Of a stretch of DNA of 64,000 nt, positions 8,065-60,224 are shown piece by piece. Every line of letters starts with the position of its first letter. Position 1 is the first letter of the stretch. The translations under genes were made by a program, and so were the position numbers. Below the pieces are notes generated by a model. That model was not told where the DNA came from, ran no database searches, and was given only the letters and a program-made list of their open reading frames with translations. This stretch comes from Pseudomonadota bacterium (GTDB taxonomy: Bacteria; Myxococcota_A; UBA796; GCA-2862545), in assembly GCA_023954855.1 (NCBI GenBank), contig JAGSGY010000003.1:1-64000 (forward strand), in the 5' to 3' direction.

Positions 8065-9519
8065 TCAGTCTTGGGTGGGAAAGCGCAGCACAAAGCGGGC
8101 GCCGCGCGAGGTGTTCTCGGCATGTACGCTGCCCTCATGCGCTTCCACGATGGCGCGAGTGAGCGCGAGTCCTAGGCCCGTTCCGACGGTGGCCCCTCGG
8201 CTGGTGTAGAAGCGGTCGAACACATGGTCGATGGACTCTTCGGGGAGCCCGGGTCCGTCGTCTTCGACCTCGAGGACGACGTCGGCGGACTGGCGGGTGA
8301 GTCGCACGGTGACTTGGCTATCCGCGAACGAGAGCGCGTTCTCGAGCACGTTGCGGAGGGCCGTCTCGATGCTCGACGGTCCCCCGAACAGTGTGCTGTC
8401 GATCAGCTCCTGGTGCACCGCGATGTGGGCATGTCGTTCATCGGACTGCACGGTGTCCAGCAGTCCTGCGACGAGGGCCCGCAAGTCGATGGACAGGCGC
8501 TCTTCGGCCCTTAGCCCCGCCTCTGCTCGAGCCAGCTCGAGGAGCTGCGTGACGAGGGCGTCTAAACGCCGTGATGAGTCATCCAAGATGCGTGCGATGC
8601 GCGCCACGCGGCTTTCGGTGAGAGTTGCCGACCCAGCCAGAGACTCCGAGGCTGCTCGAATCGCCGCCACGGGGTTCTTCATCTCGTGGGCAAGGTCGGC
8701 GACAAAGGCCTCGTTCTGTTCGGAGGTAGAGCGGACCTCGGCCAGCAGCTGGTTGAACGCGCCAGCCAGCTCCCCAAACTCGTCCTCTCGAGGAAGCTCC
8801 ACATCCTCGGCAGAGAGGGGGCGGTCGACGCGGGCGAGCACCTGACGGCGCAGGTCCTCAAGCGGACGCACAATCCGCCCTCCAAGCCAGGCGCCAGCCA
8901 TGAGGGCTGCAAGCGCCACCAGCAGCGACACTTTGAGGAGCTGAAAACGCGCGTCATAGAGAGCGCGAATGGGCAGGCGAGAGGCCTTCTGGGCGTACAC
9001 CACGCCCTGCGCGGACTGTCGGGCCGAGTGACAGACCAACACGCGCTGGTCTGCATTCTCGATACAACCGCTCACGTGAACCTGAGTGCGGGCTCGGGTG
9101 ACTTCGCTGCGTTGGGCCATGGGTGGGCGCTGTTCCTCGAACTCATCGAGGTCGAGGCGTGCTTGTTCCTGAAAAGCGGTGTGCACGATTCGCCCGGTCC
9201 ACGTGGTCTCGCCAGAGTGGTCGGCGCTGGCCAAGATGGCCCCGTCATGGCCGATGATGGTCACGCGCGTGCGGGTGCTCCTGGCCTCGAGTTCGGCCAC
9301 CTCATCGGGCGTCTCGCCCTCGTTGAGCGCATCGCTTGCCCGGTGGCTGACGCCCGAGAGGGTGAGCCCGATTCGCTGACCGACCGTTGCATCTGCGAGA
9401 TCCGTCGCCCACACCGCCAAGACCGGAAGTGCCGCGACCATGAGGACCACGAGAACCGCGCGGAGGCGGAGGCTACGTCGCCGCACCATCGAGCTCGCGC
9501 GACCGCGCAATCCACTCAT
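8065..9519 (-). CDS. Sensor histidine kinase (two-transmembrane, HAMP)
   Basis: This is a 484-residue sensor kinase. Membrane segment 1 spans about residues 21-38, an extracytoplasmic sensor region 40-195, membrane segment 2 196-213, then a HAMP linker. The HisKA domain has the phosphorylated His278 in [14 protein letters not shown], and the HATPase domain has an N-box, DDGPG and [11 protein letters not shown]. The periplasmic part contains cysteines at about 152 and 163 that may form a disulfide. The start codon overlaps the stop of the OmpR-type regulator by 4 bp, so the two are a co-translated cognate pair. Overall layout resembles CreC-type kinases, but the signal is unknown. Confidence 0.92.
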
Positions 9520-13584: not shown

Positions 13585-15291
13585 TCAGCGTGGCTCGCAC
13601 CGCGAGAACACCGCGTTGCAGATCAAGCGCATCCGCCGTCCGGCCTCCACGGTGATTCGGCCTGCGACGACCGTGCCTCGCTCGGGGAAAGTGGCCTCAA
13701 CGACGTAGACGCCCGCCGGTACGCGGCCCGGCGGGTAGCTTCCCTGGTCACCGACCAGTGTGACCGCACTGTGGTCTCCACCGACGGACACGACGCCGGT
13801 GAGACGCCGTGGTGCGCTGGGCGCAACGGGCGTTGGAGAGTCGGTGGGCTGTGCCGGCTGTGCAGTGGGGCTGGCCACCCGGGACGGCTCGGGTTCTGCC
13901 TCCGCGTCGGAGGGCTCGGGAATGTCGATCTCGGACTCGCCCAGCTCGGGGACCGGTTCGAGAACGGAGCGGGCCGGCGCCGAGGGAGAGCTTGGAGCTC
14001 GGTTGATCGTGACGATGCGCTCGGGCGGGTTGAGAGCGAAGGTGGTGAGGCCGCCGATCGCGAGGAGGGAAGCGACGAGGAGCACCACCGAGGCGATGGC
14101 CCATGCCCGCGCTGCGACCGTGCCCTCCGGCGTGAGATCCCGGGTCGCCAGCGCGGTCAAGGTCAGAGGTTCCGGCTCCGCGGGGGGCGGCTCCACGAAG
14201 GCGGGTATGGGCTGCTCGTCGGTGTAGGTGCGGACGAGCTCACCGGTCACCTCTGGCGGCAGTCCGAGTGCTGCGGCCACACTGGGCGCATCGGCCACCG
14301 ACTCCTCTTCATCGCCGCTGGCGACGCCCTCTTCGACAATGGTGCCGGAGAGCCGGTCGAGGGGGAGTCGTCCCGTCCGCTCGACCACCATTGGAACCGT
14401 TCGCTCCGCCCAGTCTCGGAGTGACTCGCCTCCCACTTCGCGGCGCGCCTCCGAGGCCATGCTCTCGACATTTCGCGAGGGCGGGCGGTCCTCGGGATCA
14501 TAGGCGAGCAAAGAGCGCACGAACTCGACCACGCTGGGGACCTTGCCGCCGGTCGTCGCGCTCAGCTGCTCCATGCCTTTCTTGATGCGCTGGTGGTGCC
14601 GGACGGGGTTGCCCGAAGCTCGACCGAACGGTGCGCCCACCAAACACTCGAACAACAGAGCGCCAATGCTGTAGACATCGCCGGCGGGCGAGTCCACGCC
14701 GTCCAGGCGCTCTGGGGACACGTATTCCCACGAGCCGAAACCCCGGCTGGTGGTGTTCGCTTCGCGGCGTTCGAAGTCGGCGGTTGCGATGCCGAAGTCG
14801 AGGACCTTGGGCCCTCCGCCAGCGGGGATCTGCACGTTCGACGGCTTGATGTCGCGGTGAAGGATGCGCAGCGGTCTGCCGTCGGGGCCAGGGGTGTTGT
14901 AGGCGGTGTAGAGGGCTCCAGCGAGCTCCGAGGCGATCTCCAAGGCAGCTGCGGGTGGAAGTGGCCCTGTGGTCTCGATGCACTGCTTCAGCGTCGCGCC
15001 CGACACGTACTCCATGACGATGGTCCAGTGACCGTTGAGCTGGACCAACCCATCCACTTGCACGATCGCACGATGACGCACCATCCCAAGGATTCGCGCC
15101 TCATCGCGCAGCCGTCGCATGATGTCGTCGGCCCGCTTGTGCTGAGCGTGGAGCATCTTGAGAGCGACCTGCTTCGAGAAGCCGCCTCCACCGAGGAGCT
15201 CGGCCCGGTAGACGGTGCCGAAGCCTCCTTGGCCGATTGGGGCCACCACGCGGTAACAACGGCCTCCGCCGCCTCCCCCTAGGGCATCCAT
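13585..15291 (-). CDS. Membrane Ser/Thr protein kinase (Hanks type)
   Basis: A cytoplasmic kinase domain fills residues 12-290: glycine loop IGQGGFGTVY, K45, catalytic HRDIKPSN (D147) and DFG (D165), and an SPERLDG segment. A proline- and acid-rich linker follows, one membrane segment at about 405-430, and an extracytoplasmic C-terminus that ends in a PEGA-like beta region (GVYVVEATFPERG) and two cysteines. The layout is that of bacterial PknB-like receptor kinases. The start overlaps the end of the upstream secreted-protein gene by 13 bp, so the two are likely co-expressed and perhaps partners. Confidence 0.9.
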   Translation of the reverse strand: MDALGGGGGGRCYRVVAPIGQGGFGTVYRAELLGGGGFSKQVALKMLHAQHKRADDIMRRLRDEARILGMVRHRAIVQVDGLVQLNGHWTIVMEYVSGATLKQCIETTGPLPPAAALEIASELAGALYTAYNTPGPDGRPLRILHRDIKPSNVQIPAGGGPKVLDFGIATADFERREANTTSRGFGSWEYVSPERLDGVDSPAGDVYSIGALLFECLVGAPFGRASGNPVRHHQRIKKGMEQLSATTGGKVPSVVEFVRSLLAYDPEDRPPSRNVESMASEARREVGGESLRDWAERTVPMVVERTGRLPLDRLSGTIVEEGVASGDEEESVADAPSVAAALGLPPEVTGELVRTYTDEQPIPAFVEPPPAEPEPLTLTALATRDLTPEGTVAARAWAIASVVLLVASLLAIGGLTTFALNPPERIVTINRAPSSPSAPARSVLEPVPELGESEIDIPEPSDAEAEPEPSRVASPTAQPAQPTDSPTPVAPSAPRRLTGVVSVGGDHSAVTLVGDQGSYPPGRVPAGVYVVEATFPERGTVVAGRITVEAGRRMRLICNAVFSRCEPR

Positions 15292-53810: not shown

Positions 53811-53869
53811 CGTGTGTCTGGGCTTGACGACGTGCAAGCTGCACCCTCGATGGGATAGGGGTGGGGTCC

Positions 53870-55231
53870 ATGTCGCAGCGTCCCTACCCAAGTTCCGAAG
53901 AGTCCGAGCGCGCCCTGCTCGGAGGCCTGATCCTCGATCCAAATCGGATTGACGAAGCCGCGCACCTAGTCAGTTCTGATGACTTCCACCGAGACGATCA
54001 CGGCCGGTTGTTTGAGCTGCTCTCTGATCTTCGAGCCAAGCGCGTCGACATCGACCTGATCGTCGTCTCGGAGTGGATCCAGCGCGAAGAGAAGGCTGGC
54101 GCCTACGGTGGCGTCGCCTACGTCGTGTCCCTGACCCGCGAAGTGCCGGCCACGGCGAACCTGACGCACTACGCCGCGGTCATTCGCGAGAAGGCGGTAC
54201 TTCGCCGGTTGATCGAGCGGACCGAGCACTACGCCGAGCGCGCGTTTGCACAGCCCGCGAGCGTCACAGAGCTTGTGAGCGAAGCTGCGAAGGAGATTCA
54301 GGAGCTCGCCGCAGCAGGGGACCAGAAGGGCTGGAATCGGATCAGCCTCATTCTCGATGACGAAGTCATGGCCATCGAGAAGCGGCAGGAGGACGGCGGC
54401 GAGGTCGCCGGCGTCTCCACGGGATTCATCGATCTCGATGCCAAGCTTGCGGGGCTGCACAGGACGGACTTGCTCATTCTCGCGGCGCGCCCAGCGATGG
54501 GTAAGACCTCCCTTGCGCTGAACCTCGCCCAGAATGCAGCGCTCAAGGCCGGTGTCGGGGTGGGGATCTTCTCCCTCGAGATGCCTCGTGGACAACTCGT
54601 CTCTCGCATGCTTTGCACCCTCGGCGAGGTGGATGCCACCCGCGTGCGGAAGGGGCGTCTGGACATGGACGACTGGGAGCGCCTCAATGACGCCTCGGAT
54701 CAGCTGCGTGAGCTCCAGATTCATATCGACGACACGGGCAACCTGACGATGACGGAGCTGCGCGCGCGGGCACTTAGTCTCGCAACCAAGGTTCCGAACC
54801 TCGGCTTGATCGTCATCGACTATCTGCAGCTGATGAAAGGGGACCCGAAGGTCACCTCCCGCGAGCAGCAGATCAGTGCGATCTCGCGAGGACTCAAGGG
54901 CCTCGCGAAGGACTTGGATGTCCCAGTCATTGCGCTGTCGCAGCTCAATCGCGGCGTCGAGAGCCGACAGAACAAGCGGCCGCTCGCCTCGGACCTCCGT
55001 GAGTCCGGAGCCATTGAGCAGGACGCCGATGTCATCCTGTTCATCTACCGCGATGAGGTCTACGACCCCGACACCGCCGAGCCAGGTGTGGCCGAGGTGA
55101 TCATCGCGAAGCACCGCGCCGGACCCACGGGAACGGTCAAGCTCGCATTTCAGGGACAATTCACGCGCTTCGACAATCTCGCGAGCGCCGATAATCATCT
55201 CGCCGGACTCTCTGGCGGGGCCTTTGATTAA
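53870..55231 (+). CDS. dnaB: Replicative DNA helicase DnaB
   Basis: DnaB unwinds DNA at the replication fork. The N-terminal helical domain begins with SSEESERALLGGLILDP. The RecA-type core has Walker A ARPAMGKTSLALNLA, GIFSLEMPRGQL, Walker B LIVIDYLQLM, ALSQLNRGVE, and DLRESGAIEQDADVILFIYR. Length is 453 residues, as expected. I prefer the ATG at 53870; a GTG at 53861 is an alternative. It closes the conserved prs-to-dnaB cluster and is followed by a hairpin. Confidence 0.96.
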   Translation: MSQRPYPSSEESERALLGGLILDPNRIDEAAHLVSSDDFHRDDHGRLFELLSDLRAKRVDIDLIVVSEWIQREEKAGAYGGVAYVVSLTREVPATANLTHYAAVIREKAVLRRLIERTEHYAERAFAQPASVTELVSEAAKEIQELAAAGDQKGWNRISLILDDEVMAIEKRQEDGGEVAGVSTGFIDLDAKLAGLHRTDLLILAARPAMGKTSLALNLAQNAALKAGVGVGIFSLEMPRGQLVSRMLCTLGEVDATRVRKGRLDMDDWERLNDASDQLRELQIHIDDTGNLTMTELRARALSLATKVPNLGLIVIDYLQLMKGDPKVTSREQQISAISRGLKGLAKDLDVPVIALSQLNRGVESRQNKRPLASDLRESGAIEQDADVILFIYRDEVYDPDTAEPGVAEVIIAKHRAGPTGTVKLAFQGQFTRFDNLASADNHLAGLSGGAFD

Positions 55232-55272: not shown

Positions 55273-55314
55273 CGGCACCACGCGCGCCACCGAGACTCGT
55301 CACACGCGCGCCCC

Positions 55315-55343
55315 TTGACCCGACCGTTTGCTTCCGGTAGCAA
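55315..55343 (+). promoter_or_regulatory. Putative promoter of the FHA gene
   Basis: TTGACC (55315-55320) and TAGCAA (55338-55343) are 17 bp apart, about 100 bp before the FHA gene start. The -10 is weak. The rest of the 215-bp gap after dnaB shows nothing else I can name. Confidence 0.3.
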
Positions 55344-55446
55344 GGGACTCCTAGCCAGGAACGCCTGGGATCGATTCGTGGGCTGCCCCACGGGTTGCTT
55401 CGCGATACAGTTCCGGCCTCACGAGTATCAGGAGAAGGCCACCCCC

Positions 55447-56475
55447 ATGGACAACGCTGAGCTTCTGTCCGAATTCCAGGGCCACGTCACTAAGTTCGAG
55501 AAGTTCTACGGCTTCATCGAAAAGGCAAAGAGCCAGGCCGGGAAATTCGCCCCAAAGGTCGTCGAAAAAGTCATCTCGGATAACACCGAGAAGATGATGG
55601 TCTGTGTACAGGACATCATCCCGCTAATCGGCGACATCGAGACACACATCGCAGGGCTTGGCGACAAGCGCGAGACCACGTTGGGAGGGCGGCAAGAGTC
55701 GCAGTTCGCCATCGAGGAACTCGAACTTCGCCTCGCAATCGAAGACATCTCGCAAGAGTCCTTCGATCAGTCTTCTGCCGACCACCAAGCGAAGGTCGAC
55801 GGCATCGATGGAGCTGTAGCCGACATCGACTCGGAGCTCGAGGCCTACCAAGGTGCGCTCTCGAAGTGGAGCGAGCTCGGCAACGCCTCCGGCGTTCTCG
55901 AGCCGCAACCCGAGCCGGAGCCGGAGCCGGAGCCGGAGCCCGAGGTTGAGGACGAGCCGGTCATCGAGGTCGACGACGCCGACGAGCTCGAAGGCTTTGA
56001 CGACGGCGACGCCCCCGAGGCGCACGTCGAGCAGGTCTCCATCCAGGATGACATGTCGGCCGTCTTCGACGACATGGGTGACATCGAAGTCGGCGAAGAC
56101 GACGATCTCGAGATCGAAGTTGGCGAAGCCGAGGACGATGATGGCGACGACGCTGCCGCGGGCGATGACGACCGTCTTCGCCGCGCCGTTCTGCTCTACC
56201 AGGAGGGTACTGCCGAAGAGCAGATTCACCCCTTCAACGGTGAGCTCATGTCGCTCGGTCGCGGTCGCGACAACGACGTGCAGGTCAAGAACGACAGCAA
56301 GGTCTCGCGCTACCACTGCAAGCTGTATCGCAAGGACGGCAACTTCTACATCGAGGACAACCGGTCCGCGAACGGCACGCTGGTCAACGGCGAGTTGATT
56401 ACCGAGCGCCGCCTGTTCGGCGGTGAAGAAGTCATCATCGGCGAGACCTTCTTCCGCTTCCGCATCCTCGACTAG
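55447..56475 (+). CDS. FHA domain protein with coiled-coil and acidic Glu-Pro linker
   Basis: This 342-residue cytoplasmic protein has a helical N-terminal half (residues 1-145, probably coiled coil), then an (EP)n hinge at about 153-170 and an acidic stretch to about 240. A C-terminal FHA domain covers residues 255-340: LGRGRDNDVQVKNDSKVSRYH and NRSANGTLVNG are the phosphothreonine-binding loops. It should dock on Thr-phosphorylated partners, such as targets of a Hanks-type kinase. The ATG at 55447 follows AGGAGAAGG. The HisKA-only gene overlaps its stop by 1 bp. Confidence 0.86.
   Translation: MDNAELLSEFQGHVTKFEKFYGFIEKAKSQAGKFAPKVVEKVISDNTEKMMVCVQDIIPLIGDIETHIAGLGDKRETTLGGRQESQFAIEELELRLAIEDISQESFDQSSADHQAKVDGIDGAVADIDSELEAYQGALSKWSELGNASGVLEPQPEPEPEPEPEPEVEDEPVIEVDDADELEGFDDGDAPEAHVEQVSIQDDMSAVFDDMGDIEVGEDDDLEIEVGEAEDDDGDDAAAGDDDRLRRAVLLYQEGTAEEQIHPFNGELMSLGRGRDNDVQVKNDSKVSRYHCKLYRKDGNFYIEDNRSANGTLVNGELITERRLFGGEEVIIGETFFRFRILD
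55912..55941 (+). repeat. Tandem hexanucleotide repeat coding Glu-Pro
   Basis: GAGCCG is repeated four times perfectly from 55912 to 55935, then once as GAGCCC. It lies in frame in the FHA gene and codes a flexible or rod-like hinge whose length could vary by slippage without frameshift. Confidence 0.8.
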
Positions 56476-56813
56476 TGGAAGCTCCCGTCCTGTCGATTGC
56501 AGACGCCGGCCAGCGCAGTGATGTGCTGGCCGCTCTTCGTGAGGCTGGGCTCGATTGGACGGTCGTCGCGCCCGCCGAAGTTCCGGCAGATGCCGCGGTA
56601 GTCCTCTCGGATGCCCACCGGGCGTCGCCGGCGATGCGAAAAAAGCTCCGGCACGACGTCCGCACCCCGCTCGCCGTATTGCTGGGGCAGGCCGATCTAC
56701 TCGAACTCGAGCCGCTGACGGCGCGCCAGCTCCGCTGTGTGGAGACTGTGCGCCGACACTGTGACCGACTTGAGCAGATGTTGGCAGAGATCGCTCGCGA
56801 CGTCGCGCCTTGA
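56475..56813 (+). CDS. Small HisKA-only protein (dimerisation/phosphoacceptor domain without ATPase)
   Basis: This 112-residue protein holds a HisKA-type helical hairpin at about residues 54-108: RHDVRTPLAVLLGQADLL with His60, Asp61 and Thr64, then a second helix ETVRRHCDRLEQMLAEI. No HATPase domain follows; the stop at 56813 is clean. Residues 1-48 have a hydrophobic-strand/helix pattern like the first half of a receiver fold, but lack the acidic pocket. It could receive or remove phosphate, or dimerise with a full kinase. The GTG at 56475 overlaps the FHA stop by 1 bp; an HTH-receiver gene lies 78 bp downstream. Confidence 0.72.
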   Translation: MEAPVLSIADAGQRSDVLAALREAGLDWTVVAPAEVPADAAVVLSDAHRASPAMRKKLRHDVRTPLAVLLGQADLLELEPLTARQLRCVETVRRHCDRLEQMLAEIARDVAP

Positions 56814-56830
56814 ACTTGTCGCCAAACGGT

Positions 56831-56859
56831 GTGACTAGAGCCGGCCGGTAAGGTAATCT
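56831..56859 (+). promoter_or_regulatory. Putative promoter of the HTH-receiver gene
   Basis: GTGACT (56831-56836) and TAATCT (56854-56859) are 17 bp apart, about 32 bp before the ATG at 56892, in an AT-richer patch of the 78-bp gap. Confidence 0.35.
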
Positions 56860-56891
56860 GCAAATACTAAAGCCCGCCGCGAGGACTTCGC

Positions 56892-57500
56892 ATGGCCCGT
56901 AGGAAGAGCAACGTTGATGGCCCGGTGTACTACACGACCTACCAGGTCGCGAAGTTCCTCGGCGTGTCGTTGCCCACGGTCGTCAACTGGGTCAACTCCG
57001 GTCTCCTGTCGGCGCATCGCACGCCGGGCGGACACCGGCGTATCGCTCGCAATGACATCATCGCGTTTGCACGGCAGCAGAACTACCCGCTGTCTCGTGA
57101 GCTTCTCGGTGAAGAGGACGGCGCACAGCGCATTCTCATCGTGGATGATGAAGAAGACTTCGCCGAAATGGTGCGCGACTACTTGTCGCTCAAGGGCGGG
57201 TTCGAGGTCGAGGTCGCCGATTCCGGCTTCTCAGCTGGGTACACCGTAGCGAGGTTCAAGCCCCACCTCATCCTGATGGACCTGATGATGCCGGACATGG
57301 ATGGCTTCGAGGTTCATCGCACGCTCCGCGACGACGAGGACACCAAGCACATTCCCGTGCTCGCCTGTACGGCCTACCGGGACCCGGTCGTCGATGCACG
57401 CGTCTCTGAAGAGCGCTTTGACGGCTTCATCGAGAAGCCCGTGAAGCTCACCCACCTGCTCGGCCTGATTCAGGACAAGCTGGGCGTCACGGCAGGCTGA
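56892..57500 (+). CDS. Response regulator with N-terminal MerR/excisionase-type HTH and C-terminal receiver
   Basis: Residues 13-62 form a MerR-like/excisionase helix-turn-helix (YYTTYQVAKFLGVSLPTVVNW and RTPGGHRRIARNDI). Residues 79-200 form a receiver with D85-D86, phospho-acceptor D130 in LILMDLMMPDMDGFE, and a lysine in FIEKPVK. The order is the reverse of OmpR-type regulators. It would bind DNA or other HTH partners in a phosphorylation-dependent way. GAGGA lies 6 nt before the ATG. No full histidine kinase is adjacent; the HisKA-only gene upstream is the nearest possible partner. XdhC follows after 8 bp. Confidence 0.88.
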   Translation: MARRKSNVDGPVYYTTYQVAKFLGVSLPTVVNWVNSGLLSAHRTPGGHRRIARNDIIAFARQQNYPLSRELLGEEDGAQRILIVDDEEDFAEMVRDYLSLKGGFEVEVADSGFSAGYTVARFKPHLILMDLMMPDMDGFEVHRTLRDDEDTKHIPVLACTAYRDPVVDARVSEERFDGFIEKPVKLTHLLGLIQDKLGVTAG

Positions 57501-57508
57501 CGAACGCA

Positions 57509-58351
57509 GTGCACGTCTTTGAGGCTGCGGCTGAGGCTGTTCGGACTCGCAGACCGGCTGCGATTGCGACGGTGATCTCAGTCGGAGGGTCCACGCCACG
57601 CGGCGTGGCGAGCCGGATGCTGGTCTACGCAGACGGGTCAATTGTCGGTACGATTGGCGGTGGTGCTGTCGAGCTCACGGTCATTCGCGAAGCCATCGAG
57701 GCTATCGAGTCTGGAGAGAGTCGTCGCTGGTCAGCCCACCTCACACGAGACCTGGGCATGTGCTGCGGTGGAAAGATGGAGGTCTACGTGGAGCCTATCG
57801 CCATGCGCGAACCGTTCGTTTGCTTCGGTGCAGGTCATGTCGCCAAGGCGCTGGTTCCGATGCTGGTCGCGCTCGACTTTGACGTCACCGTAGTCGACTC
57901 TCGGGACGAACTTCTGACCGAGGAGCGCTTTCCCGGCGTCCAGCGCGAGCTGATTGAGCCCGTGGACTTTGCCGCTGGGCTCACCGGACATCCGGACGCC
58001 TACTGGCTCGTGGTCACCCATGACCATGCGGTAGACCAAGACCTCGTGGAGAACCTCCTTCCGAAGGCCTGCGCTTGGCTGGGCATGATCGGCTCCAAGG
58101 GAAAGGTGGCACGCTTTCTCGTGCGCTACCGCGCCGCCGGCGTAGATGAGAGCCTGTTCAGTCGGCTTTCTGCTCCGGTCGGACTGGATGTCGGCGCCGA
58201 GACCCCAATGGAGATCGCTGTCGCCATTGCCGCTGCTGTGATCCGCGTGAGACGTCGCTCAACCGCCGATCCCATCCCCTTGTCGAAGCACCCTCTCGAT
58301 GCGCGCGGTGGTGATGGCAAGGCCACAGCCCCAGCGCTCACTCGTGGGTAG
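57509..58351 (+). CDS. XdhC/CoxI family protein
   Basis: This 280-residue protein has the XdhC N-terminal domain (RRPAAIATVISVGGSTPRGVASRMLV, with IGGGAVE) and a C-terminal Rossmann domain (FVCFGAGHVAKAL, VVTHDH, WLGMIGSKGK). XdhC proteins help insert or sulfurate the molybdenum cofactor of xanthine dehydrogenase and relatives. A LTRDLGMCCGGKMEVYVE segment is conserved in the family. No molybdenum hydroxylase gene is in the window, so its client is elsewhere. It starts with GTG 8 bp after the HTH-receiver gene. Confidence 0.9.
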   Translation: MHVFEAAAEAVRTRRPAAIATVISVGGSTPRGVASRMLVYADGSIVGTIGGGAVELTVIREAIEAIESGESRRWSAHLTRDLGMCCGGKMEVYVEPIAMREPFVCFGAGHVAKALVPMLVALDFDVTVVDSRDELLTEERFPGVQRELIEPVDFAAGLTGHPDAYWLVVTHDHAVDQDLVENLLPKACAWLGMIGSKGKVARFLVRYRAAGVDESLFSRLSAPVGLDVGAETPMEIAVAIAAAVIRVRRRSTADPIPLSKHPLDARGGDGKATAPALTRG

Positions 58352-58388
58352 CTGCAACTCCCGCGGGCTTGCGGTACTGTCCGTGCCG

Positions 58389-60224
58389 ATGCTCGCCCTC
58401 CGCCGACCCCTGACTCTGCTCTGCATGCTGTTGCCTGCAGTGGCGCTCGCAGAGCCCGAAGATGACGAGCCTACGTCCGGGCTTCCCGAAGGCGGCGCGA
58501 TCGAGTTTGGCAGCTCCACCGAGGCCGCCGTTTCCGAGCCCGAGGCTCGCGCACCTGCCCAGACTTTCGCTGCGGGACACGAGTGGACCAGCACGGTGCC
58601 CATTGCGGTGCGAGACGTCACGGACGTCGCGGTGCATGCGCAGGACAGCACGCTGGTTGCCTACGTGGCGGGAGATGGGTCGGCCTGGCTCTCGACGGAT
58701 GGTGGCCTGCGCTGGAGACAGATCTTGCTCTCCGACACTGGACTGGGCGCTGACTCCGGGGACGAGGACCTGCGACGCGATGTCGAGGCCTTTATCGACG
58801 ACGTCGTTACGAGCTTCGATGACGGTGACTTCGAGAGCTACGACGAAGGCGATGCAGATGCCGAGGCGGCGGACGTGGCGAGTGACGTCGAGGCGGCCGC
58901 AGGCGAGGCGCAAGCCACGGCCGATGCCCTTCGGGGTGACCTCACCGCGGGAACAGCGCTCGTCGAGACCTCCGAGGCCGCTGAAGGTGCTTCGCGCGTA
59001 TGGTGGGGACCCGAAGGCGAACTATTCGTCGGGAGGCCGGATGGCCTGTTCTACTCCGAGGACAACGGCTCCCGGTTCGTCCGGGTGCTTGATGACCAGG
59101 TCCACGCGCTCAGCTATCTAGAGAGCCGAGGTTTGTGGGTCGCCGGCACGTCCAACGGGGTTCGCTGGGCCGTCGACCCACGTGGCTGGATCGACGCCGA
59201 GGACGCCACGACAGGCCTCAACGTTCGTGATCTCTCGGTCGGCCCGGAGGGCATGTACGCTGCGACCGATGCTGGAGTGTTCTTCGCCGCCGATGCCCAG
59301 ACGTGGGAGCCCATCGGCGACATTCGGCCCTACGTCGCTATCGCCGCAGACCCCGACTGGCCCGGCGGGTACTGGGTCGCTAGCGCGACGCAGATTCTGC
59401 GCTCAGATGACCGAGGTCAAACCCTCCGTCCATCGATCGGAGCCCCGCTCGCGGGCGTGGTCGATATCGAGTGGGTCAGCGGGGGACAGCTCATCGTTGC
59501 GACGCGCAGCGATGGTCCCTGGGAGAGTATGGATGGCGGCACGCGCTTCTCGCCGCTCGTCGAGGGACTCACCAAGCCCGACACCCGTGCCATTTCGCTC
59601 CGGGGACGGGCGCTGTATCTCGCATCGGAGGAGGGCCTGTTCCGTCGCGTCGTCGCGACCGAACAGGAGAGCGAGGTTGTGCCGTTTATCGCGTTGAGTG
59701 AGCTGCTGGAACACTCTATGACGCGGCCGGGCCTCGTCCCTCGTGGACCCACTTCGACGATCTTACGACGCTCGATGTTGCCGATGCTTCAGGTGGAAGG
59801 CCGCCTTCGCCGCGAGAATGCGCTGCGATGGAACGGCGGCACGACCACAGATGAGGCCGCCGATTGGACCATCGTCGCCCGAATGGTGTTTTCTCCGCGC
59901 GGCCGACGCGTGGACACCGTCGACACCGGCCTGACCTATGGCATCGTGACGAGCGGCATCGAAGGCATGGTCGACGATGGCCTGATCGGAATGATCGACC
60001 GCGGAGGGCGGCGCGACGCGCTTTCCTACCGTGCGTCTTTGGTCGAGCGCATCTCGAGTGTCTACGGCGCCCGAGTGGAGCTCGCAGGACGCTCACGCCA
60101 GGGGCTGACCCTGAATGAATCCGTCGACCTCGAGCTTCGGCTCATGGAGCTCGACGCAGAACTGGATCTCTTGACCGAGGGGGAGGTGTCCCGATGGACG
60201 CCAAGCCCCAAGGAGGACGGATGA
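58389..60224 (+). CDS. Secreted beta-propeller protein (YCF48/BNR-like)
   Basis: A signal peptide (cleavage near ALA, about residue 21) leads a 611-residue protein. Residues 60-440 contain repeated AWLSTDGGLRWRQIL, LFVGRPDGLFYSEDNGSRF and MYAATDAGVFFAADAQTW units, the Asp-box/YCF48-type propeller blades; an acidic Asp/Glu/Ala insert of about 70 residues interrupts the first. The last 150 residues are strand- and helix-rich, different from the propeller. Exact function is unknown. TACTGT lies 8 nt before the ATG, with no ribosome binding site. The HhH gene starts in its last 4 bp. Confidence 0.78.
   Translation: MLALRRPLTLLCMLLPAVALAEPEDDEPTSGLPEGGAIEFGSSTEAAVSEPEARAPAQTFAAGHEWTSTVPIAVRDVTDVAVHAQDSTLVAYVAGDGSAWLSTDGGLRWRQILLSDTGLGADSGDEDLRRDVEAFIDDVVTSFDDGDFESYDEGDADAEAADVASDVEAAAGEAQATADALRGDLTAGTALVETSEAAEGASRVWWGPEGELFVGRPDGLFYSEDNGSRFVRVLDDQVHALSYLESRGLWVAGTSNGVRWAVDPRGWIDAEDATTGLNVRDLSVGPEGMYAATDAGVFFAADAQTWEPIGDIRPYVAIAADPDWPGGYWVASATQILRSDDRGQTLRPSIGAPLAGVVDIEWVSGGQLIVATRSDGPWESMDGGTRFSPLVEGLTKPDTRAISLRGRALYLASEEGLFRRVVATEQESEVVPFIALSELLEHSMTRPGLVPRGPTSTILRRSMLPMLQVEGRLRRENALRWNGGTTTDEAADWTIVARMVFSPRGRRVDTVDTGLTYGIVTSGIEGMVDDGLIGMIDRGGRRDALSYRASLVERISSVYGARVELAGRSRQGLTLNESVDLELRLMELDAELDLLTEGEVSRWTPSPKEDG

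Follow-up and report, generated by a model that had tools for sequence, protein, structure and literature searches.

An FHA-linked locus of uncultured Myxococcota-like bacteria encodes an apparently reduced histidine kinase that may serve as a phosphotransfer partner

The locus described here lies in a 64,000-nucleotide stretch of DNA (the window; positions 1 to 64,000 of contig JAGSGY010000003.1, assembly GCA_023954855.1) from a class of uncultured, Myxococcota-like bacteria. It encodes an FHA protein, a small protein with a HisKA domain and a response regulator with an HTH_17 DNA-binding domain. Comparison with relatives indicates that the small protein is a reduced histidine kinase, kept as a DHp hairpin, and that such reduction has occurred repeatedly at the locus. 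The reading that we favour, with a probability of roughly 0.55, is that the hairpin serves as the histidine phosphotransfer partner of the adjacent regulator and that the FHA protein is the anchor. It draws on the domain content of the proteins, synteny, orthology to full kinases, the invariant His and Asp of the hairpin, selection and receiver decay.

Organization and distribution of the locus

The three open reading frames are all on the plus strand and were found where an earlier reading of the DNA, made from the sequence alone (the sequence-only reading), had placed them. The FHA protein (55447..56475, 342 aa) was assigned by Pfam, AlphaFold2, Foldseek and conservation, the HisKA-only (or DHp-only) protein (56475..56813, 112 aa) by Pfam PF00512 and orthologues at the matching place, and the HTH_17-receiver response regulator (56892..57500, 202 aa) by Pfam and orthologue alignment. 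Upstream on the same strand, ribosomal protein L9 (53320-53763) and the replicative helicase DnaB (53861-55231), both assigned by Pfam and synteny, mark the syntenic place. The usual downstream neighbour encodes an XdhC-family protein (57509..58351, plus strand; Pfam PF13478/PF02625 and synteny); it is often on the opposite strand in relatives and is not considered part of the module. The window also contains, at 58299-60224, a reading frame for a protein of 641 aa that matches nothing in Pfam at E<=1. A promoter-like pair (TTGACC, 17 bases, TAGCAA) is located at 55310-55350, upstream of the FHA gene, and is partly kept in the upstream region of the congener in a two-genome upstream alignment.

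Relatives were searched for in 58 genomes of the window's family and order and then in 71 genomes of the class, and the neighbourhoods were fetched. The order L9-DnaB-FHA-[middle gene]-HTH/receiver-XdhC is syntenic across the class, with L9-DnaB not in the fetched flank of some loci of genus g15. A chance arrangement of the trio was rejected since the identical order recurs in dozens of related genomes. The sequence-only reading had set co-occurrence of the three genes elsewhere as a test of its proposed module, and the trio is indeed widespread among relatives in the class, but it is not a fixed unit, as the FHA and HTH-receiver genes often occur without the middle gene. The FHA gene is sometimes alone at the locus, the middle gene and the regulator are both absent in some genomes (g2, g4), and genome G006 (L213) has an FHA-DHp pair without an adjacent regulator. 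The gene neighbourhood is absent around HTH-receiver relatives in other phyla.

Two loci have features of their own. In L066 (G011), DnaB matches in two parts that are separated by an extra ~1.2 kb, at about 1173-2369, which would fit an intein or an insertion in the helicase gene. The L9-DnaB-FHA-kinase-regulator locus of the class is also carried by L106, on a metagenome-assembled contig titled Klebsiella pneumoniae (record CAMAWH010000003.1), and this title is almost certainly wrong.

The HisKA-only protein

The 112-aa protein matches HisKA over residues 58-106 (E=4e-10; 39.9 bits against a cut-off of 26.9). Pfam gives no HATPase_c (PF02518) match in it and, without that domain in the same protein, it is not a complete histidine kinase. 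The H-box residues H60 (codon 56652-56654), D61 and T64 are present, and the GTG start codon overlaps the FHA stop codon by one base (TAGTG), both as the sequence-only reading had described. Its claim of an intact hairpin is borne out by the AlphaFold2 model (mean pLDDT 75), a helical hairpin with predicted helices at aa 52-76 and 83-110. The hairpin (56628..56804) was delimited by the model and by profile comparison with kinases of known structure, many of which the DHp profile matches, including KdpD (E=4e-11) and HK853. Foldseek searches with the hairpin model gave weak matches, the best of which is DivL; HK853 is also among them. The first ~50 residues are modelled as a beta-alpha-beta-beta arrangement (strands at 5-7, 29-31 and 43-45, helix at 11-23) and belong to an N-terminal half (56475..56627) delimited by AlphaFold2 and by the longer relatives L062 and L094.

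There is no complete histidine kinase near the locus, again as first noted; the nearest one in the window, encoded on the minus strand at ~8071-8715, is ~48 kb distant. The genome has 60 HisKA matches and 66 HATPase_c matches, and the 112-aa protein is its only HisKA in an open frame of less than 250 aa that has no HATPase_c as a neighbour. A TcrA-like split kinase with an adjoining gene for the ATPase domain was considered, and no such gene is found at the window locus. Stand-alone HATPase frames occur genome-wide, unlinked to the locus.

In most of the 17 HisKA-only loci the DHp start codon overlaps the FHA stop codon or lies within 10 bases of it, an arrangement expected for coupled translation. 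Three loci (L063, L064 and L067) lack an ATG, GTG or TTG upstream of the His codon in frame with HisKA, and their sole start candidate is a CTG that overlaps the FHA stop codon (CTGA). At these loci, translation of the hairpin must begin at CTG or else follow a frameshift that appends it to the FHA protein. In the comparison of the window with G001, its congener, dN/dS is 0.16 for the DHp half and 0.37 for the N-terminal half, compared with 0.14 for the FHA gene, 0.07 for the regulator and 0.12 for DnaB (NG86 method, with synonymous sites near saturation). Purifying selection acts on the DHp half, whose dN/dS is similar to those of DnaB and the FHA gene.

Reduction of the middle gene

The middle gene encodes a full hybrid-type histidine kinase of 650-780 aa in two families, f2 (several genera) and f5. 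Pfam identifies a receiver, HisKA, HATPase_c and GGDEF in the f2 kinases and HisKA, HATPase_c and GGDEF in those of f5; GAF-like and second receiver-like stretches in the f2 proteins were seen by eye only. The N and G1 boxes are intact in the full kinases (the N box of L069 was read from the sequence). The full kinases align with one another over long stretches, and L235, a protein of family f9, aligns with them as well (E=1e-34). HisKA-only proteins of ~70-200 aa are found in 17 genomes, belonging to f1 (the window's family), to g20 of f2, and to L094 and L074 (the latter of f5); L094 is from g15, a genus otherwise with full kinases. In L082 (f2) and L184 (f9) the sequence after HisKA no longer matches HATPase_c, while L235 has an HATPase_c match just above the cut-off and N and G boxes that look damaged by eye. 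The middle gene is absent in the remaining lineages.

Since full kinases occupy the matching slot of relatives, the 112-aa protein of the window appears to be a reduced histidine kinase, a point that the sequence-only reading had not seen. A tree of the L9, DnaB, FHA and regulator sequences, read on the assumption that a lost ATPase domain is never regained, points to about six separate events in which the kinase domain was lost and the DHp kept. DHp-only forms have separate origins in f1, g20, L094 and L074, and degenerate ATPase domains in L082 and f9. The clearest case is L094, in which the N-terminal receiver of the kinase is fused directly to HisKA and the rest is gone (profile match E=7e-16); L062 of f1 has a weaker receiver-like N-terminus that aligns to full-kinase receivers at E=6e-5. 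The direct profile comparison between the window-type alignment and the full-kinase receivers was negative, so it is from L062 and L094 that the first 50 residues of the window protein are read as probably the leftover of the N-terminal receiver of an ancestral hybrid kinase.

The response regulator and its tie to the middle gene

The 202-aa regulator has an HTH_17/MerR-type DNA-binding domain at aa 13-63 (HTH_17, E=3e-14) and a receiver at aa 81-193 (Response_reg, E=8e-23), in agreement with the N-terminal HTH and C-terminal receiver first assigned to it. The receiver residues D85/D86, D130, T160 and K182 are all present. D130 (codon 57279..57281), the predicted phospho-acceptor, is invariant in orthologues that have the middle gene, and D130 and the sequence RTPGGHRR are near-invariant in an alignment of 21 orthologues.

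Each of the 31 loci with the middle gene has a receiver in which the acidic pair, Asp, Thr/Ser and Lys are intact. Among the 18 loci without it, ten have a degenerate receiver and an intact DNA-binding domain. All ten are in one clade (f4+f6), and the decay therefore counts as one event (a Fisher test of receiver decay was computed with 0/32, the correct count being 0/31). Such a direction would be predicted for a middle gene and a receiver that act as a pair. The other eight loci without the middle gene retain an intact receiver, which indicates that the regulator can work without this DHp; other kinases presumably serve the receivers there. Co-occurrence of the middle gene and the regulator is weak (p=0.07, computed with 32/33 where 31/32 is correct, and ignoring relatedness). 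A phospho-relationship linking the HisKA-only protein to the receiver, as the sequence-only reading proposed, is thus well supported: full kinases share the slot, and receiver decay is confined to loci that lack the middle gene.

The regulators with decayed receivers (L092, L095-L097, L100, L189, L191, L192, L214 and L217, of f4 and f6) appear to be response regulators converted naturally into phosphorylation-independent DNA-binding proteins.

The FHA protein

The FHA protein consists of an N-terminal three-helix domain (aa 3-148, confident helices in the AlphaFold2 model), an acidic disordered linker (aa 150-245) and a C-terminal FHA domain (aa 246-341; PF00498, E=9e-17) that is modelled at low confidence. 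The phosphopeptide-binding residues GR, SRxH and NG are conserved, which predicts phosphothreonine binding, and the best Foldseek matches are FHA domains of the GarA/OdhI type. The protein is class-specific: it is present in 64 of 71 class genomes and was found in none of 308 other genomes sampled from the phylum. The gene is retained whether or not the middle gene and the regulator are present. Its retention without the DHp, the regulator or both makes the FHA protein the anchor of the locus and means that its role cannot depend on those two alone.

The linker, acidic and otherwise variable, contains a motif at aa 201-207 (DDMSAVF in the window) in which D202, S204 and F207 are conserved or nearly so. 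This motif is a candidate phosphosite or docking motif. Second copies of the N-terminal helical domain, with no FHA match, are encoded at G000:C110:12402-12881 in the window's genome, where the copy is interrupted by an in-frame TAG, and at G001:C99:16300-16743.

Proposed function of the hairpin

The relay that we infer, in its phosphotransfer, direction, donor, coupled translation and FHA role alike, would run as follows. H60 would be phosphorylated by another protein, either the receiver of a hybrid kinase or, in trans, the ATPase domain of a kinase. The phosphate would pass from H60 to D130, or drain from D130, and with T64 in the window's version hydrolysis of the D130 phosphate would also be possible. 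The response regulator would then switch its MerR/excisionase-type DNA-binding domain. The FHA protein, made together with the DHp protein by coupled translation, would dock a phosphothreonine protein and recruit or sequester the DHp/regulator pair.

The ATP-using engine was apparently lost in several lineages and the hairpin kept, which suggests that the hairpin alone may act as a phosphate relay or eraser. Conservation of H60, the other test that the sequence-only reading had set, holds: the His is invariant in 32/32 middle proteins compared, and both it and the Asp at +1 are invariant in the DHp-only (17/17), full (13/13) and degenerate (2/2) forms. The residue at +4 is Ser in all 13 full kinases, and Thr or Asn (nine), Ser (five) or Gly (three) in the 17 HisKA-only proteins. 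In HisKA proteins, including CrdS of Myxococcus, D(+1) is needed for phosphorylation of the His and not for phosphatase activity, and Thr/Asn(+4) is needed for phosphatase and not for kinase activity; the phosphatase activity of CrdS depends only slightly on the His (PMC3510030). Since the His and Asp never change and the +4 residue varies, selection appears to keep what His phosphorylation requires. That Thr/Asn(+4) occurs in only nine of the 17 HisKA-only proteins speaks for transfer of a phosphoryl group via H60 rather than for a phosphatase-only role. The window protein, with T64, could be both phosphotransferase and phosphatase. The conservation of the His and Asp could partly be inheritance, in short, fast-evolving proteins.

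The main rival to phosphotransfer is that the hairpin is a dedicated phosphatase, in which an isolated DHp dimer would dephosphorylate D130-phosphate set by other kinases or by acetyl phosphate, with no need for phosphorylation of H60. This is a possibility that we rank second. The DHp of HK853 alone has phosphatase activity (PMC5727384) and that of EnvZ is likewise active in the account that the same paper gives of Zhu et al. 2000. The window protein carries the phosphatase residue T64, and Thr/Asn(+4) is found in 9/17 DHp-only proteins, in two independent lineages (f1 and g20), compared with 0/13 full kinases. However, the +4 residue is Ser or Gly in 8/17 DHp-only proteins, and both D(+1), which is dispensable for phosphatase activity, and the His, which is weakly needed for it in CrdS, are invariant here (PMC3510030).

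A further reading adds Ser/Thr kinases. The FHA protein would dock a Ser/Thr-kinase substrate and Hanks-type phosphorylation would gate the His-Asp step. In such a scheme a minimal (~70-110 aa) DHp relay would be both co-produced with and held by a phosphothreonine-reading FHA scaffold, and Ser/Thr signalling would decide the flow of phosphate from H60 to the regulator; we regard this extension as doubtful. The conserved binding residues and GarA/OdhI-like character of the FHA domain, the start/stop coupling of the FHA gene with the DHp gene and ~145 Ser/Thr kinase matches in the genome are consistent with it. No Ser/Thr kinase is linked to the locus, though, and the FHA gene persists where the DHp, the regulator or both are absent. 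The sequence-only reading had pointed to a Ser/Thr kinase at 13585-15291. This kinase is real and lies on the minus strand, but as one of ~145 Pkinase matches, 40 kb away, it was rejected as evidence for a link. Both the link of the FHA protein to Ser/Thr kinases and the joining of Hanks-type and two-component signalling, which the sequence-only reading also proposed, thus come down to the presence of the FHA domain, with no dedicated kinase at the locus.

The hairpin might instead be a non-catalytic adaptor that, by binding the receiver or by forming a heterodimer with the DHp of another kinase, sequesters or reads its partner, much as DivL acts on DivK-phosphate. DivL has lost its phospho-accepting His, unlike the present proteins, in every member of which the His and Asp are invariant, and an adaptor role is therefore unlikely. 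DivL is the best, if weak, Foldseek match, and reduced kinases can, by one account (PMC4211667), become sensors of the phosphorylation state of a regulator. It is very improbable that the HisKA-only genes are decaying, pseudogene-like leftovers of a kinase being lost, as the absence of the middle gene from several lineages, its greatly varying length, the fast-evolving N-terminal half and the three orthologues without an ATG, GTG or TTG start before the His might suggest, because the frame is open in 17 genomes with an invariant H-box, purifying selection acts on the DHp half (dN/dS 0.16), and the gene has been kept across the divergence of an entire family with start codons coupled to the FHA stop.

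Comparison with known systems

Response regulators of the HTH_17/BldC type with the identical HTH-receiver architecture occur as orphans in Desulfobacterota, Planctomycetes and others, where they do not have the FHA-kinase neighbourhood. An FHA domain and a histidine-kinase part work together in EspA of Myxococcus, so the combination of FHA with a histidine kinase is already known. EspA is one polypeptide with a full kinase, whereas separate genes are involved here, and the EspA family model scores the window's FHA protein at 35 bits, over the FHA region only, against a cut-off of 1400, which places the protein outside that family. In the TcrA / Rv0600c-Rv0601c split kinase of M. tuberculosis, the phospho-accepting domain and the regulator are separate small proteins; there the ATPase-domain protein is encoded next door, and none is found at the window locus. 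DHp constructs of EnvZ and HK853 resemble the window protein in that a DHp alone can act on a phosphorylated receiver (PMC5727384). These constructs are laboratory-made and not natural genes, and the Thr or Asn that they require is not conserved here.

P2CS-type surveys class stand-alone HisKA proteins without HATPase and receiver domains as phosphotransfer proteins (PMC4618731). Those are isolated and unstudied, whereas the proteins described here belong to a conserved series, and full kinases fill the slot in relatives; a literature search for named stand-alone HisKA systems returned survey mention only. HisKA-only proteins are thus a recognised, hardly studied category, and phosphotransferases with a dead ATPase are well known. 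The novel points are that reduction recurred at a single conserved locus, that the natural DHp proteins are very small, and that their genes are coupled to an FHA gene. Orthologous proteins from a single chromosomal position range from a ~780-aa hybrid kinase to a ~70-aa hairpin, with about six apparent losses of the ATPase domain, and this natural series makes the conversion of a kinase to a phosphotransferase or phosphatase directly testable. The series also supplies natural minimal DHp proteins, ready for use as partners of one regulator family, and the locus is a specific, though unproven, site at which cross-talk between FHA/Ser-Thr and His-Asp signalling could be sought.

The closest comparison is with ChpT and Spo0B. 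ChpT is an established DHp-type phosphotransfer protein with a dead ATPase domain (PMC9981736). Like ChpT and Spo0B, the window protein has a histidine-kinase-related structure, a DHp hairpin with a phospho-accepting His and no working ATPase, and it is predicted to be a partner of a response regulator; it thus belongs with proteins in which the DHp and its His are kept and the ATPase is lost or dead. ChpT and Spo0B keep a folded pseudo-ATPase, whereas the window protein ends after the hairpin and some of its relatives are only ~70 aa long. Coupling to an FHA gene and repeated reduction at one locus further set the present proteins apart. The 112-aa protein is most likely to be read as a ChpT-like phosphotransfer protein that has been reduced further.
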